Below, in pieces: positions 20,124-29,117 of a DNA stretch of 64,000 nucleotides. Below the pieces are notes generated by a model. That model did no database searches. It saw only the letters and a list, made by a program, of their open reading frames with translations, and was not told the origin of the DNA. Positions within the stretch are counted from its first letter, which is position 1; the number at the start of each line of letters is the position of its first letter. A program made the translations under genes and the position numbers. This DNA is from Candidatus Pantoea floridensis (GTDB lineage Bacteria > Pseudomonadota > Gammaproteobacteria > Enterobacterales > Enterobacteriaceae): assembly GCF_900215435.1 (NCBI RefSeq), contig NZ_OCMY01000001.1, positions 620,001 through 684,000 of the forward strand, in the 5' to 3' direction.

Positions 20124-20126
20124 ACA

Positions 20127-20153
20127 AAAGGCGGCCACATGGCCGCCTTTTTT
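20127..20153 (+). terminator. Rho-independent terminator after gltA
   Basis: AAAGGCGGCC-ACAT-GGCCGCCTTT, a 10-bp perfect stem running into six T residues, 4 bp after the gltA stop. The opposite strand also has an A/T flank, so it may act weakly on nei transcripts. Confidence 0.93.
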
Positions 20154-20174: not shown

Positions 20175-20963
20175 CTACACCTGGCATCCCGGACACCAAT
20201 AAAATGGCCGCGATGACAATACGCCCTTCTCAATCACCGCCCCGCAACGCCGACATTTTTTGCCTTGACGATGAAACACCTCAAAGCGAAACGCGGCATC
20301 TTCGTGATATTTCTTCATGCTGCCACGCATCTGATACGACAAACGCGGCACCGCCAGCATCGCTTCACTCAGCGCCGTGAGCTGCTGCTCACTTAAATCC
20401 TGCGCACGATGCGACGCCAGCAATCCAGCGTGCCACAAAATCTCCACGCGCAGATAATTGCCCAAGCCGGCGAGAAAAGCCTGATCGAGCAGCAGGCCGC
20501 TGAACTGACGACGTCGAAAGCGCGGCGATAACAGGCGCTCGCGCACGTCATCCACGGTTAAGCTGGCATCTAACACATCCGGTCCAACCCGTTGTAAAAA
20601 GGGATGTGCCGCTAAGGTATCAGCGTTGAGCAACTGAATGTCTGAGGCGCTGTACAGCAAAATGGTTTTATCGGCATTGGCGAGCCGCACGCGCAGCTGT
20701 CGCGTGGTATTCGGCTGCGTGCCGGTTGGCACCACGCGCCAGACGCCGTACAGCTGATTGTGACTGTAGAGTGTCAGGCCGTTTGAGAAGTGCGTTAGCA
20801 GCGCTTTGCCGCGCGTTTCAAAAGCGTTGACGGTGGCTCCCATCAGCGCCGGTTCGTAGGTTTTCAGCTCGGGAAAAGCAAACCACACATCGGTGAGTGG
20901 CTTGCCTTCCATTGCCTCTGCCAGCTGATCCGCCGCGCGGCGGATCTCCGGTCCCTCTGGCAT
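20175..20963 (-). CDS. nei: Endonuclease VIII (DNA glycosylase/AP lyase Nei)
   Basis: Base-excision repair enzyme that removes oxidised pyrimidines and cleaves the abasic site. 262 aa (E. coli 263). The catalytic N-terminus [12 protein letters not shown] supplies Pro2 and Glu3, the H2TH region is central ([20 protein letters not shown]), and the C-terminal zinc finger has CRRC and CPGC pairs. It starts 11 bp after pcp, so it is probably transcribed with the 5-oxoproline genes; E. coli also has nei directly after pxpA. Confidence 0.96.
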
Positions 20964-20974
20964 AACAACTCCTG

Positions 20975-21622
20975 TTAGTGGGTGGCGCCACCGACGACGC
21001 GGATATCATTTTCGGTACTCAAAACCACCTGCAGCGAGGTTTCCAGCGCCTTAATCACGCTGGCGGTTGCCATACTTGCCACACCAGGATGATGCACCGC
21101 TTGTTCCGGCATATACGGAATATGAATAAAACCGCCGCGCGCCTTACTGTTCGTGGTGTGAATCCAGTGCAGCAGGCTGTACATCACGTGATTACAGGTA
21201 AAGGTCCCGGCGGTTTGCGATACCGAAGCCGGCACCCCCACTTCACGCAAGGCCGCAACCATGGCTTTGATTGGCAGCGTGGAGAAATAGGCCGCCGGGC
21301 CATCCGCCACGATGGGTTGATCGATTGGCTGCTGCTGGTCGTTGTCCGGAATGCGTGCATCATCAACGTTAATCGCGACGCGTTCAACGGTAATGTCGGA
21401 TCGTCCCCCCGCCTGACCAACACAGAGCACGCGATCGGGCTGAATCTCTTCCAGCGCGCGCGTCAGCACTTCACCGCAGGTGGCAAACACCACCGGCAGC
21501 TGGCGCACCACAATGCGCGCACCAGCAATTTCTTTGCCATCAAAAGAGCGTACAGCCTCCCATGAAGGGTTAATGTTTTCACCGCCAAACGGCTCGAACG
21601 CCGTCATTAACACCGTTTTCAT
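20975..21622 (-). CDS. pcp: Pyroglutamyl peptidase I (pyrrolidone-carboxylate peptidase)
   Basis: Cytoplasmic cysteine peptidase (family C15) that removes N-terminal 5-oxoproline from peptides. 215 aa, the usual length. The catalytic triad is complete: Glu80 (ITVERVAIN), Cys143 ([10 protein letters not shown]) and His167 ([11 protein letters not shown]). Seven bases after the DUF979 gene and 11 before nei. Its product is the substrate of PxpABC encoded upstream in the same direction. E. coli K-12 lacks this gene. Confidence 0.96.
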
Positions 21623-21629
21623 TGTGACC

Positions 21630-22646
21630 TCACAAGAACATCAGGAAGTAGAGCAGGAAAATATTTACCAACAACAGTAGCACACCGGTTGGTACCTGAG
21701 CCTTGATCACCGCGTTACGATCCGGCAACTCTAACAGGCGCGCCGGTACAATGTTGAAGTTGGCTGCCATTGGTGTCATTAACGTGCCGCAGTAACCGGA
21801 GAACATGCCGATTGCTGCCATCACCGCCGGATTGCCACCGTGTTGCAGCACCAGAATCGGAATACCAATCCCGGCGGTAACAATCGGGAACGCAGCGAAA
21901 GCATTGCCCATCACCATGGTTAGCAATGCCATGCCAATGGCATACACGGCCACGGCAATCAGGCGATTATCCACCGCCAGATACTGCTCTGTGAGGTGTG
22001 AAATCGCGCTGCCGACACCGGCGCTGGTGAACAGCAGGCCGAGCGTGGCGAGAATCTGCGGCAGAATAAACGCCCAGCCGACCGCATCCAGCAGACGGCG
22101 GGTTTCCTGCATCGACTGCAGCGGTTTTTCGTGGGTGATGTTCAACGCAATCAGCCAGCCGAGCAGACAGCCAATCATCATTGAGAACAACGTCACCAGC
22201 GTGGAGTGATTGCCGGGTCCAAATACTTTTTCCTGCAAACCAGGAATATGGTTGAACGCCAGCACACCCACTACCGTCACCAAAGGTATCGCCAGCGCTG
22301 GCAGGAACAGTTTATTACGCAGACGTTTGGCGCTCTCCTGTTTTTGCTCATCGCTGCGCTGATGATAACGCCCCAGCCGTACGCCACCGAAACCGGCAAT
22401 CAGCGCCATCACCACCACGGCAACGCCTACGGCGATGTGCAACCCGCGGCGGCCCAGTTCGGCATCACCCGCCCACTGCCCAATCAATTGATAAGCACCG
22501 TCGCCAATCAAAAAAATCAGGCCATACAATGCCCAGAAAAGCCCGGTAGTAAAACGGCGCGGATTGGCGCTATCACGCCAGGAGAGAACGGCAACCACCA
22601 GCAGGATCACGCCTGCCAGCCACATCAAATATTGTTGCTGGAACAT
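21630..22646 (-). CDS. DUF979 family membrane protein, putative 5-oxoproline/peptide transport component
   Basis: 338 aa, highly hydrophobic with about nine to ten predicted membrane segments (first at residues 7-23, last at 318-336). It contains SPAWxx-free, Gly-rich loops such as [19 protein letters not shown] and [20 protein letters not shown] recognise it as DUF979; the molecular function is not established. Its ATG overlaps the DUF969 stop by one base and pcp follows after 7 bp. The setting suggests uptake or release of 5-oxoproline or pyroglutamyl peptides, which is inference. Confidence 0.85.
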
Positions 22647-23374
22647 TACTGCCCTCCTTTGGCATTAAGAGCTTGCTGGTTCAACGCGCCCAGTTCACGC
22701 GACAGCTGGCGGTCAAGACGCACCAGACGCGCCGAATGGATGAGGAAAGCGCAGAGTGCGGTGGGGATGCCCCACAGTGCGATATGCAGCGGCTCGGTGC
22801 TAATTCCCGCAGACTCCTGCATGAAGTTGTGCATAAAGATGATCGCACCAAAGGCAACAAAGATATCTTCACCAAAGAACAGACCAATATTATCGGTGGC
22901 GGCGGACATCGCGCGCAGGCGATGACGCACCTCCGGCGAGACCTCACCGTAACGGTTTTCCGTTGCGCCTTCGGCCATCGGCGCCAGCAGCGGGCGCACC
23001 ATTTGCGGATGGCCGCCAAGGCTGGTTAAGCCCAACGCAGCGGTAATTTCACGCACAAACAGGTAGACGATCAGCAAACGACCTGCAGTGGCCGTTTTGA
23101 TCTGCGCGATCCAGCTTTGCGCCCGCTCCTTCAGGCCATGACGCTCCAGCAAACCGATAACCGCCAGGGGCAGCAGCAAAATCAGCGGAAGATTGCGTGT
23201 ATTAAGGAAGCCGGAGCCGAGCTTTTCCAGAATATCCGTTAACGGCATATGCGCCGCCAGGCCGGTGACGAAACCCGCGACAATGACTACCAGCACCGGG
23301 TTAAAGCGCAGCACAAAACCCAGAATGATGGCGGCAATGCCAAGTAACGGCCAGAGATTTACCACGTTGTCCAT
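22646..23374 (-). CDS. DUF969 family membrane protein, putative transport partner of DUF979
   Basis: 242 aa with about five to six membrane segments (8-23, 25-45, 62-78, 95-115, 170-185, 198-213). Loop motifs include LTSLGGHPQMVRPLLAPMAEGA and SAATDNIGLFFGEDIF, which are conserved in DUF969 and suggest a transport or binding role. Coupled to the DUF979 gene by a TAATG overlap. It lies 58 bp after pxpA, separated by a hairpin (23389-23418). The exact function is unknown. Confidence 0.85.
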   Translation of the reverse strand: MDNVVNLWPLLGIAAIILGFVLRFNPVLVVIVAGFVTGLAAHMPLTDILEKLGSGFLNTRNLPLILLLPLAVIGLLERHGLKERAQSWIAQIKTATAGRLLIVYLFVREITAALGLTSLGGHPQMVRPLLAPMAEGATENRYGEVSPEVRHRLRAMSAATDNIGLFFGEDIFVAFGAIIFMHNFMQESAGISTEPLHIALWGIPTALCAFLIHSARLVRLDRQLSRELGALNQQALNAKGGQ

Positions 23375-23388
23375 CTTGTTCCCTCGTC

Positions 23389-23418
23389 AAAAATACAAAG
23401 CCCGGCGTGATGCCGGGC
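23389..23418 (-). terminator. Terminator-like hairpin between pxpA and DUF969
   Basis: Minus strand GCCCGGC-ATCAC-GCCGGGC followed by TTTGTATTTTTG. The stem is perfect but the T-run is broken by G and A, so it could be a leaky terminator that reduces expression of DUF969-DUF979-pcp-nei relative to pxpBCA. Confidence 0.6.
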
Positions 23419-23432
23419 AATGAGTAAAATCG

Positions 23433-24170
23433 TTATGCGCTCGTCACCGCAATCTGATTTGTCGCAAATGCCGCGCGCAAGGTGCGGGCAAATTGCAGTG
23501 CGTGTGCACCATCGCCATGTAGACAGACAGTTTCAGCATTCACGCTCACCCATTCGCCGCTGATGCTTTGCACCTGGCGCTGCTGCACCATCGCCAGCGT
23601 TTGTGCCAGCGCCTGGTCAGCATCCTCAATCATGGCATTGGGCTGACTGCGGGGTACCAGCGCCCCGCTCGCCAGATAGCCTCGGTCAGCAAACACCTCT
23701 TCGCGGGTGCGCAAACCATGGTGGGCAGCCGCCGCAATAGATGCGCTGCCCGCCAGCCCAACCAGGATCAATCCGTCATCTACCGCTTTTACCGCACGCG
23801 CAATAGCATCCGCCAGCTGCGGGTCGCCCGCCGCCTGGTTGTAAAGCATGCCGTGTGGCTTAACGTGTACCAGACGCTCGCCTTCGCTTTCGGCAATACT
23901 TTTCAGTGCTCCAATCTGGTAAATCAGCTGTGCATATACGGTTTCTGGCGGCAGCTGCATCGAGGTGCGGCCAAAGTTTTCACGATCGGGGAAACTCGGG
24001 TGCGCGCCAATCGCCACGCCTGAGGCTTTCGCCCAACGCACCGATTGCAGCATGGTTTGTGCATCGCCGGCGTGGAAGCCGCAGGCGACATTGGCTGAAC
24101 TGACCAACGTCAGCAGCTCCCGATCGCTGGCACTGCCCTCGCCAAGATCGGCGTTAAGATCAATCTTCAT
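23433..24170 (-). CDS. pxpA: 5-oxoprolinase subunit PxpA
   Basis: LamB/YcsF-family subunit of the ATP-dependent 5-oxoprolinase PxpABC, which converts 5-oxoproline to glutamate. 245 aa, starting [18 protein letters not shown], with the family signatures [11 protein letters not shown] (about 29-39) and VKPHGMLYN (about 102-110). Overlaps pxpC by 11 bp. E. coli ybgL is the orthologue. Confidence 0.96.
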
Positions 24171-25092
24171 GTCCCAGCCCCCAGGCTATTTGGTCGAACG
24201 AACGTTGTTGATGCTGCTTGGCGCTGATGGCGTCTTCCAGCGTGCAATGAATAAAGTGGATAGGTTCCCCAAGGCGAATTTGCGCCAGGTGATAGAGGTC
24301 GGCTTCGATGATGCAGGCAATACGCGGATAGCCGCCGGTGGTCTGCGCGTCTGCCATCAATACGATCGGTTGACCGTTGGGCGGGACCTGTATCACGCCT
24401 GGCACCAATCCGTGTGACAGCAAATCGCGTGTCGCATCGCGCTTCAGCTCGCGCCCCTGCAGGCGATAGCCCATGCGGTTGCTTTGTGGGCTAAGCTTCC
24501 ACGGGCTGCGCCAAAAACCCTGCTGCGCTTCACGGCTGAATTCGCTGTATTCCGGGCCCGCCAGCGCGCGAATGCGATTGCCCCACAGCAGTTGGCGCAC
24601 GCCAGCTTTGTCTTTAAAGTCACGCGTGGGTTTACCTAAAGGCAATTCGTCTCCGTCTTGTAATTTTCGTCCCTGCCAGCCGCCAAAGGCCGCCTTGAGA
24701 TCGGTACTGACCGAACCGAGCATTTCCGGCGCGGCAAAGCCACCGTTTACCGCCAGATAGCTGCGCATGCCGCGTGTGGGCGTTGCCAGCGACAGCACCT
24801 GACCTTTTTTCACCGGCAGTCGCCAGCCGGTCCAGACCGGTTTGCCATCCAGATCGGCATTACAGCCAGCCCCCGTCAGGGCAAACCAGCCATCGCGAGT
24901 AAACTGCGCTTTGAACTGGCCAAGCACAATTTCCAGCACCGCACTCTGCTGCGGATTGCCCACCAGCATATTGGCCGTGCGCATCGCCGGTTGATCCAAG
25001 GCGCCACCTACGCTAATGCCATATTGCCGAAAACCGGTGCGCCCCTGATCCTGCAGCGAGGTCATCATGCCCGCGCGAAGAATTCTTAACAT
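24160..25092 (-). CDS. pxpC: 5-oxoprolinase subunit PxpC (biotin-dependent carboxylase-like, KipA family)
   Basis: Second large subunit of 5-oxoprolinase. 310 aa, starting [21 protein letters not shown], with the conserved [13 protein letters not shown] and [10 protein letters not shown] motifs of the KipA/AHS2 domain. It overlaps pxpB by seven bases and pxpA by 11, so the three subunits are translated as a coupled set. E. coli ybgK is the orthologue. Confidence 0.96.
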
Positions 25093-25742
25093 ATGCCCTC
25101 CTGCTGCGGCACAAAGCGCACGCTATCGCCGGGACGTAACAACGTTGGCGGCTGCTGCAAGGGATCAAATAGGCTGAGCGGCGTATGACCAATCAACTGC
25201 CAGCCGCCAGGTGCAGCCAACGGATAAATACCGGTTTGGCTACCGCCAATGCCCACCGAGCCGCTTGGGACAATCACACGCGGCTCGGCGCGGCGCGGCG
25301 TATGTAAACGCTCATCCAGTCCACCGAGATAAGGAAAACCAGGCTGGAAGCCGATGAAATAAACCACGTAATCAATGCTGCTATGGAGTTCCACCACTTG
25401 TTTGGGCGTCATGCTGGCGCGATCCGCCACCAGCGGCAAATCCGGGCCACCCGCGCCGCCGTACACCACCGGGATTTCTACCCGGCGCGATTCTGGCAGC
25501 TGCGCTTCGCTCTCCTCCCACCATTGCTGCAAGCGTTCAATGGCATCGAGCGCATTTTGTTGCGGATCGCGCAGCAGCAACGTCAGGTTATTCATGCCGG
25601 GAATGACTTCTTCCACCTGCTCATTGTGCTGCAGTCGCTGACACAATCCCCAGATGCGCTGCTGGCTGGTGAGGGAAACAGGAGGTTCTAGCTCCAGCAC
25701 CACCGCGCGCTCACCTAGCAGATAACAACGTGCTCGTTGCAA
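25086..25742 (-). CDS. pxpB: 5-oxoprolinase subunit PxpB (KipI/AHS1 family)
   Basis: AHS1-domain subunit of PxpABC; KipI, a histidine kinase inhibitor in Bacillus, is a homologue. 218 aa. I chose the TTG at 25742 ([19 protein letters not shown]): AGGAGG lies a few bases upstream and the family protein starts at this point. [17 protein letters not shown] motif (here [13 protein letters not shown], about 132-144) and [14 protein letters not shown] are intact. First gene of the module, behind a candidate promoter at 25884-25912. Confidence 0.95.
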
Positions 25743-25883
25743 AAACGACCTCCTGGTAAAAATATGTCAAAAAAAACAGATAATTAAGGTGCGCAATAAT
25801 GCGCGTCCTACACAACCTTCCCCCTTTAGTTATAGGGGTACCATGATGGCGACCGGGTACGCGTTTATGCGTAAAGGCAATAA

Positions 25884-25912
25884 GTTATGCGAAAGTGACA
25901 GAGTTGTGTCAA
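25884..25912 (-). promoter_or_regulatory. Candidate promoter of the pxpB operon
   Basis: Minus strand: consensus -35 TTGACA (25907-25912), 17-bp spacer, -10 CATAAC (25884-25889) preceded by G. It lies about 140 bp upstream of the pxpB TTG, so the transcript would have a leader. That leader contains another small inverted repeat (CCCCT / AGGGG near 25820-25840). Confidence 0.45.
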
Positions 25913-25920
25913 CAGATTTG

Positions 25921-25944
25921 CGCCCTTAACGCGTGTTAAGGGCG
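25921..25944 (-). other. Perfect 10-bp hairpin downstream of ybgI
   Basis: CGCCCTTAAC-GCGT-GTTAAGGGCG, a perfect inverted repeat 15 bp after the ybgI stop. No T-run follows on the minus strand, so it is either a Rho-assisted end or a processing/stability hairpin. Confidence 0.5.
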
Positions 25945-25958
25945 TGAGAAAAGAAGAA

Positions 25959-26702
25959 TCAGGCAGGATTATCGATATCGATAAAGGTCACATCGAGACC
26001 ATGGTGTGCGGCTAACCACTCGCCCAGCGCCTTGATTCCACCACGCTCGGTCGCGTGATGTCCGGCAGCAAAGAAGTGCAATCCTTGCTCACGTGCGCTG
26101 TGGATGGTTTGTTCAGAAACTTCGCCAGTGATGAAAGCATCGACGCCGAATGCCGCCGCGCTATCGATAAAGCCCTGACCGCCGCCGCTGCACCAGGCAA
26201 CGCGTTTAATTAGCGCTGGCGCATTATCGCCGCAGTGCAGCGGTGTACGGCCTAAACGCTGGGCAATCTTTTCCGCCAATGCCGCACCGCTCAGCGGTTC
26301 AGCCAGTTCGCCCCACGGCACCAGCGGCTGAATGTCGCCTTTAACTTCAATATCAAACAGACGCGCCAGTTGCGCGTTGTTACCCAACTCGGGATGCGCA
26401 TCCAGTGGCAGATGCCAGCCGTACAGGTTGATATCATTGGCCAGCAGCGTTCGCAAGCGCTGGCGCTTCATGCCTTTAATCACCGGTGCTTCACTCTTCC
26501 AGAAGTAGCCGTGATGCACCAGTACCGCATCAGCATTACGCTTCACCGCTTCATCCAGTAGCGCCTGACAAGCGGTAACGCCGGTGATGAGGGTCTTTAC
26601 TTCGGCGCGTCCTTCAACCTGCAAACCGTTCGGTGCGTAATCGCTGAAGGCGCTGGTGTTAAGCTGCTGGTTGACGATCTGTTCTAATTCAACATTGTTC
26701 AT
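25959..26702 (-). CDS. ybgI: NIF3-like dinuclear metal-binding protein YbgI
   Basis: Conserved NIF3/DUF34 protein forming a toroidal hexamer with a dinuclear metal site; its physiological role is uncertain (GTP cyclohydrolase-like or metal-chaperone proposals). 247 aa (E. coli 247). Metal-site motifs are visible: VLVHHGYFWKSE, GWHLPLDAHPELGNN and AAGHHATERGGI. 18 bp after phrB on the same strand, so probably co-transcribed. Confidence 0.95.
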   Translation of the reverse strand: MNNVELEQIVNQQLNTSAFSDYAPNGLQVEGRAEVKTLITGVTACQALLDEAVKRNADAVLVHHGYFWKSEAPVIKGMKRQRLRTLLANDINLYGWHLPLDAHPELGNNAQLARLFDIEVKGDIQPLVPWGELAEPLSGAALAEKIAQRLGRTPLHCGDNAPALIKRVAWCSGGGQGFIDSAAAFGVDAFITGEVSEQTIHSAREQGLHFFAAGHHATERGGIKALGEWLAAHHGLDVTFIDIDNPA

Positions 26703-26720
26703 TACGGCTCCCTGATCGCT

Positions 26721-28148
<1,428 letters not shown>

Positions 28149-28160
28149 AAAACCCCGAAA

Positions 28161-29117
28161 TTATTGCCCGTAGCGCAAACGTAGCGCTTCTGGATAGGGA
28201 TCAAAGTAACGTTGCTGAGCCAGCCACGGATGCGGATATTCCGCCATGTAGTGTTTCAACATGGTGATTGGTGCTAGCAACGGCTGCACGCCGAGACGAT
28301 AACGATCGATCAACTGCGCCAACTCCTGACGCTGCGGCGAACTCAGCTGCGGACGGAAATAGCCTTGCACGTGCATCAGCACGTTGGTGTGATTGCGGCG
28401 CGATGCCTGGTGGGACATCAGATGCATCAGGCGATTGCGATACTCGAAGGCGTAATCTTCCAGCGAATCCCACTGATCCATGGCCGCCACAAAACGCCCC
28501 ATTTCACGGTACTCATCCTGCGCATGCGAAAGCAGCAGTAATTTGTAGCGGCTGTGAAATGCCATCAACTTGTGGCGCGAAAGGCCACTGCGCCACATCT
28601 GGTTAAATTCATGCAGCGCATAAACGCGTCCGATGAAGTTTTCTCGGATGGCATCGTCGTGCAGGCGACCATCCTCTTCCAAAGGCAGCCACGGCATCTC
28701 TTTTTGCAAGAAAGCAGTAAACATACCGGTACCAGCCTTACGGTTGTTATTGGTTTCAGGCTCATAAACCCGCACGCGCTCCAGCCCGCAACTTGGCGAT
28801 TTGGCGCAAAGAATATAGCCGCAAAGATGATGCAAAGACTTCACACGCTCAGCGGACCAGCGCTGCATTTCAGCGGTGACTTCTTCTCCGCCATCTTTAC
28901 TGAAACAAAGATGAATGTTGTCGTCGCCCTCTTTTACCAACCGTAATGCCGGACGTGGCGTAGGCAAGCCAATTGCCATTTCAGGACATACTGGCTCAAA
29001 GCGCACAAATGGCACGAGTTCATCTGTGGCGAAGGCAAAGCGTTTATGGCCGCCATCAAATCGGACGTTATCCCCGAGCAGGCAAGCGCTGATACCAACA
29101 GGAATTTTCTCGCTCAT
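28161..29117 (-). CDS. ybgA: YbgA family protein with N-terminal DUF523 and C-terminal DUF1722
   Basis: 318 aa, about twice the length of E. coli YbgA (169 aa). Residues 1-150 form a DUF523 domain with conserved cysteines (GISACLLGDNVRFDGGH, PVCPEMAIGLPTPR, AKSPSCG). Residues 190-310 form the DUF1722/YbgA domain (KLMAFHSRYKLLLLSH). The biochemical function is unknown; DUF523 proteins look like metal- or cofactor-binding proteins. Paired with phrB, as in E. coli, suggesting a link to photorepair. Confidence 0.9.
   Translation of the reverse strand: MSEKIPVGISACLLGDNVRFDGGHKRFAFATDELVPFVRFEPVCPEMAIGLPTPRPALRLVKEGDDNIHLCFSKDGGEEVTAEMQRWSAERVKSLHHLCGYILCAKSPSCGLERVRVYEPETNNNRKAGTGMFTAFLQKEMPWLPLEEDGRLHDDAIRENFIGRVYALHEFNQMWRSGLSRHKLMAFHSRYKLLLLSHAQDEYREMGRFVAAMDQWDSLEDYAFEYRNRLMHLMSHQASRRNHTNVLMHVQGYFRPQLSSPQRQELAQLIDRYRLGVQPLLAPITMLKHYMAEYPHPWLAQQRYFDPYPEALRLRYGQ

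Follow-up and report, generated by a model that had tools for sequence, protein, structure and literature searches.

The window analysed here is a stretch of 64,000 nucleotides from Candidatus Pantoea floridensis, numbered from its first letter. On its minus strand, the genes of the three 5-oxoprolinase subunits are followed by two genes of the DUF969 and DUF979 families, a pyroglutamyl-peptidase gene and nei. Read 5′ to 3′, the order is ybgI, pxpB, pxpC, pxpA, DUF969, DUF979, pcp and nei, after which comes the convergent gltA.

25959..26702, minus strand: ybgI/nif3, upstream neighbour, 216 bp from pxpB (NF008064, 471 bits; cut-off 414)
25086..25742, minus strand: pxpB, 5-oxoprolinase subunit (TIGR00370, 307 bits; cut-off 145.6; also PF02682)
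24160..25092, minus strand: pxpC, 5-oxoprolinase subunit (NF045499, 571 bits; cut-off 500)
23433..24170, minus strand: pxpA, 5-oxoprolinase subunit (NF003812, 428 bits; cut-off 378)
23400..23418, minus strand: terminator-like hairpin in the pxpA/DUF969 gap, 7 G-C pairs and a loop of 5, then TTTGTATTTTT
22646..23374, minus strand: DUF969 gene, one of two predicted subunits of a transporter for 5-oxoproline (PF06149, 302 bits; cut-off 32)
21630..22646, minus strand: DUF979 gene, predicted second transporter subunit (PF06166, 387 bits; cut-off 26)
20975..21622, minus strand: pcp, pyroglutamyl-peptidase I (TIGR00504, 282 bits, and NF009676, 326 bits; both above cut-off)
20175..20963, minus strand: nei, endonuclease VIII (NF007763, 437 bits; cut-off 252)
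20126..20151, both strands: terminator-like hairpin in the convergent gltA/nei gap, 11 pairs on either strand

The products of the pxp genes, pcp and nei were judged by curated NCBIfam cut-offs and those of the two DUF genes by Pfam cut-offs. All three PxpABC subunits lie above curated equivalog cut-offs (NF003812, NF045499 and TIGR00370); the best solved chains are YbgK (5dud) for PxpC and ybgL (1xw8) for PxpA. The start codon of pxpB is TTG, with AGGAGGT upstream. Pcp carries E80, C143 and H167, each of which is conserved in 4gxh, the solved Pcp chain that aligns best with it, and which presumably constitute the catalytic Glu-Cys-His, and the enzyme of this locus is taken here to be an intracellular peptidase. 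Both DUF families score above their cut-offs. The spacing is tight except at one point: −7 bp for pxpB/pxpC, −11 bp for pxpC/pxpA, +58 bp for pxpA/DUF969, −1 bp for the adjacent DUF969/DUF979 pair, +7 bp for DUF979/pcp and +11 bp for pcp/nei. The initial annotation, made from the letters of the window, had reported pxpBCA, DUF969-DUF979-pcp and nei in this place and direction, with a 1-bp overlap and gaps of 7 and 11 bp, and family models and coordinates bear this out. It makes no mention of the 58-bp gap, and nei falls just outside the position at which its interval began (20975).

Among the named loci compared, the closest are those of Erwinia sp. S63 (84%), a record named Enterobacter cancerogenus M004 (84%) and Pantoea eucrina (80%), measured as DNA identity across ∼12.4 kb, which places the window in the Pantoea/Erwinia group. 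The 216-bp gap between ybgI and pxpB (25743-25958), the equivalent of which is 22 bp in E. coli, contains eight consecutive T as well as short inverted repeats. A second pxp-like cluster is present in the same genome (L278:1884-5238; contig C1, about 1,416,900-1,420,200; L and G numbers denote loci and genomes). It comprises genes for a solute-binding protein and for PxpB-like, PxpC-like and PxpA-like proteins, the PxpC-like one below the PxpC equivalog cut-off.

Distribution and history of the gene block

The pairing of six functions in one stretch had initially been described as more complete than in E. coli. Across the DUF979 loci compared, the full order is recurrent and widespread in Enterobacterales, and there is no support for calling the cluster unusual. 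DUF979 was present in 96 of 295 genomes sampled from the GTDB family of the window, and 96 DUF979 neighbourhoods from 95 genomes were compared, the window's own genome being left out. The order pxp genes-DUF969-DUF979-pcp-nei was found in 40 of these 96 loci, and a count requiring all three pxp genes likewise gave 40, with L107 replacing L065. An identical order was seen in 30 of 80 named loci, including Pantoea, Serratia, Citrobacter, Klebsiella and Siccibacter; these 80 are the best matches to the DUF979 of the window and hence biased toward its kin. Outside Enterobacterales, the block recurs in Cupriavidus with all six genes other than nei. Across the 44 loci with the full block, distances between DUF969/979 sequences track those between marker genes (r 0.68), as do distances between Pcp sequences (r 0.54), and none of 2000 permutations gave a value as high in either case. 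The gene arrangement is conserved far beyond chance, yet common.

The contents of the slot between pxpA and nei were mapped on a quick, unrooted tree built with gltA, ybgI and phr sequences of 93 loci, an uneven set made up of DUF979 loci from every genome except the window's and 40 of 80 further nei loci. The full block was present in 44 loci and none of it in 23; pxpBC without pxpA was seen in 12, DUF969-DUF979-DUF2891 in six, pcp alone in four, DUF969-DUF979 without pcp or DUF2891 in two and no pxp in two. The full block is found in a Serratia-/Yersinia-like group and in the group of the window, and a third group has it in scattered lineages. Read on this unrooted tree, the block would be old and vertically passed, with parts lost several times, E. 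coli being one case.

In 12 of the 40 fetched nei loci (L247, L250-L253, L255, L257, L258, L260, L266, L268 and L272), pxpB and pxpC precede nei by no more than a few tens of bp, and the interval contains no pxpA match. This state corresponds to four changes on the marker tree, and at least two of the genomes concerned (G112 and G140) hold a PxpA-family gene on another contig.

The initial reading of the whole cluster as one pathway included nei, which is not supported. The fetched stretches of 16 order-level DUF979 loci, and those of 31 named loci from outside Enterobacterales, contain no nei near the module. It is retained in 12 loci where pxpA is lost and is missing from four in which the module is retained (L042, L044, L083 and L126). 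Membership of nei in the pathway is rejected on these grounds, and the gene is an old neighbour that has been carried along. The same might be said of the entire cluster, that is, shared ancestry of neighbours would account for it and no functional meaning need be sought; nei, gltA and ybgI do look like neighbours through history alone. However, the DUF969-DUF979-pcp block also occurs outside the gltA slot, in other orders and with or without pxp genes nearby, and all 12 DUF979 genomes of a phylum sample have pcp or DUF2891 behind it, which leaves very little probability for this explanation.

Homologies to PxpC and PxpB were found within one open frame near DUF969-DUF979 in L118, L121, L122, L127, L163 and L166, and such a shared frame also occurs in L204, L206, L207, L216, L229 and L231. 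Because a biotin carboxylase gene follows the PxpC/PxpB frame in L163, these loci may represent different carboxylases or hydrolases.

The gene behind DUF979

In the GTDB-family sample, the gene directly after DUF979 is pcp in 54 and DUF2891 in 35 of the 96 loci, and in none of the 96 were both found in one fetched stretch. No pxp gene was present in the fetched stretch of 30 loci, 27 of the DUF2891 type and three of the pcp type. The phylum sample comprised 200 genomes and overlaps the earlier samples (6 of its 12 DUF979 genomes are shared); its 12 DUF979 genomes have pcp (7), DUF2891 (4) or both (1, G681) adjoining. A tree of DUF969+DUF979 with 109 rows, made by a quick method and with a long-branch warning, places the DUF2891-type pairs in two groups. 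DUF969-DUF979-DUF2891 lies inside the pxpA-nei slot in L037-L040, L047 and L058, and these six pairs nest among the stand-alone DUF2891-type pairs (99% support), not among the pcp-type pairs of the slot. Two different cassettes thus seem to have entered this one slot. Between pxpA and DUF969 of L047 lies a winged-helix gene (HTH_27) in divergent orientation.

The DUF2891 profile gave no match in the window's own genome. A structure of the family is available (8ieu, 8iev), and a search of the accessible full texts by family name and these entry codes found no literature on its function. In a genome comparison, DUF969, DUF979 and DUF2891 carry near-consecutive cluster numbers beside hydantoinase B/oxoprolinase (PMC10040529). 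As a tentative proposal, DUF2891 could be a functional counterpart of Pcp, an enzyme releasing 5-oxoproline (or glutamate) from a different blocked compound, the DUF969-DUF979 carrier swapping its third gene according to substrate even within the pxpA-nei slot.

DUF2891 was also considered as a strict replacement for Pcp. This is weakened by G681, where DUF979, DUF2891 and pcp are consecutive (G681:C1:4888209-4890808), by G228, where pcp and DUF2891 occupy separate loci, and by the position of DUF2891 away from any DUF979 match in 7 of the 12 DUF2891-bearing genomes of the phylum sample. The arrangement in G681 speaks for substrates that are related but not the same, and against strict equivalence. 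DUF2891, a family with no assigned function, may be an unrecognised partner in the 5-oxoproline pathway, and its exchange with pcp behind DUF979 offers a direct approach to searching for its function.

The hairpin between pxpA and DUF969

The 58-bp gap between pxpA and DUF969 folds with a z of −2.78, bettered by 1 of 200 shuffles, and the hairpin of seven G-C pairs that it contains is followed by a T-rich stretch. The terminator scan as a whole returned 14 sites against 12.9 in shuffles, so the case for this hairpin rests on its recurrence. Recurrence was assessed in 77 loci, in three groups picked by names and tree position with the other pxpA/DUF969 gaps left out, using one rule for all groups that was fixed after some gaps had been seen. 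Similar hairpins are present in 18 of the 27 distinct gaps from the Erwiniaceae clade (0.85 expected from shuffles), in none of 15 Serratia-Yersinia gaps (0.17 expected) and in one of 24 gaps from other Enterobacteriaceae (0.05 expected). Among the nine Erwiniaceae-clade gaps that fail the rule is that of L117, from the window's own genus, in which a bulged hairpin precedes a T run. The letters of the stem vary among species. In one alignment of 13 sequences, two of the seven pairs have changed on both sides, as happens in 61 of 500 shuffles; the covariation score was reached by 11 of 500 and the cells paired by 6 of 500.

The recurrence of the hairpin in this clade most likely means partial termination, which would lower the expression of the transporter, pcp and nei relative to that of pxpBCA. 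The single uniform transcript that the initial annotation would imply becomes doubtful here, as a recurrent terminator-like hairpin splits pxpA from DUF969. It is possible, if somewhat unlikely, that all seven genes form one simple operon in which the hairpin is inert or merely stabilises the pxpBCA message. The common direction and short gaps are in keeping with such an operon, the hairpin lies only 25 nt from DUF969, and a promoter scan, which as a whole gave no more sites than shuffles (7 vs 6.4), shows none on the minus strand from 23375 to 28500; in seven order-level loci (L132-L138), pxpA and DUF969 even overlap by 1-11 bp. What speaks against an inert hairpin is its recurrence, together with a T run, in Erwiniaceae-clade gaps and its near absence from those of the other two groups. 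The simple operon concerns expression only and is compatible with the pathway reading given below. A hairpin specific to one clade cautions against equating neighbours in the same direction with one operon.

A proposed route for 5-oxoproline and its known counterparts

The reading that we favour, with a probability of roughly three in four, is that these genes make up a known kind of module for taking up and degrading 5-oxoproline (pyroglutamate), in which the pxpA hairpin is partly terminating and nei is a mere neighbour. DUF969 and DUF979 would jointly act as a secondary transporter importing 5-oxoproline, Pcp would trim pyroglutamyl peptides to yield additional 5-oxoproline, and PxpABC would open the ring with ATP to give glutamate. 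The module occupies the pxpA-nei slot beside gltA in this lineage, the hairpin probably passing only part of the transcripts into the transporter-pcp-nei half, with nei travelling along. For this organism, we infer the joint flux through Pcp and PxpABC, the cargo of the transporter and the partial termination.

The DUF979 protein has a CitMHS match below the Pfam cut-off, and a sequence search of solved chains with E up to 1 found no relative. Foldseek with a model of middling quality (pLDDT 73) gave no match at E 0.001 (best E 8e-3), the first rows being MtrF and YdaH, weak matches to carriers that we take to be of the AbgT type. For DUF969, helical bundles and receptors head the list, NaS1 and YdaH rank lower, and no superfamily was assigned. 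Profiles from shallow alignments detected no mutual similarity between DUF969 and DUF979; their models are reported to be similar in PMC11467057, which also predicts a DUF979-DUF969 complex. A role in 5-oxoproline transport had already been proposed for the two families (Niehaus 2017, as cited in PMC11467057 and PMC12795558). According to these citing papers, a C. jejuni cj0552-4 mutant cannot use 5-oxoproline as nitrogen source, a result that is called preliminary. Since cj0552-4 also covers the DUF2891 gene, the phenotype is not assigned to DUF969/979 alone. Other bacteria use other 5-oxoproline importers, namely PxpT, YcsG and a TRAP type. Activity of DUF969/DUF979 in B. subtilis is stated in one paper; the control genome of that species gave no DUF979 match at E 1e-20 and a single match below the cut-off.

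Alternatively, the cargo might be pyroglutamyl peptides or another N-blocked glutamate compound, from which the enzyme encoded behind the carrier would free 5-oxoproline inside the cell for PxpABC. The presence of pcp or DUF2891 directly after DUF979 in 89 of 96 loci and in all 12 phylum-sample genomes points in this direction, as does the looser link of DUF979 to the pxp genes, which are lacking from the fetched stretch in 30 of the 96, and so would a likeness of DUF979 to MtrF and YdaH. These fold matches are weak, however, the linkage would also fit a shared product pool, and the C. jejuni data concern free 5-oxoproline; a peptide cargo is distinctly improbable. The peptide-to-glutamate pathway put forward in the initial annotation is supported in part. 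Its enzymes make up a coherent route, and transport by DUF969/DUF979 has been proposed in print together with a preliminary mutant phenotype; the inclusion of nei and the claim that the cluster is unusual find no support. The pathway is plausible, most of it has already been put forward in published work, and it is not a new system. What the locus offers is to bring Pcp and the two DUF families together in one route at a much-studied site, of which E. coli, the usual reference, carries a short version.

The E. coli ybgJKL-nei locus shares the order ybgI-pxpB-pxpC-pxpA-nei and differs in that none of DUF969, DUF979 and pcp separates pxpA from nei; dtpD sits between phrB and ybgI, and abrB comes after nei. 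The initial statement that nei follows pxpBCA directly in E. coli agrees with a spacing of 34 bp in the annotated genome. Of the families searched for in the E. coli control genome, PxpA and Nei had matches, DUF979 and Pcp none. The pxpBCA-DUF969-DUF979-pcp block of Cupriavidus has its six genes in the order of the window, whereas no nei was found in the fetched stretches. The putative transporter of PMC11467057 and PMC12795558 belongs to the same two families, reported to be adjacent in 5-oxoproline operons, and in C. jejuni cj0552-4, as described there, the third gene is DUF2891 in place of the pcp of the window. In Corynebacterium glutamicum pxpTABC, the importer is of the APC superfamily and a GntR-type regulator adjoins; like the module described here, it combines an importer gene with those of PxpABC, and in that species the importer and PxpABC are both needed for growth on 5-oxoproline (PMC13274462).
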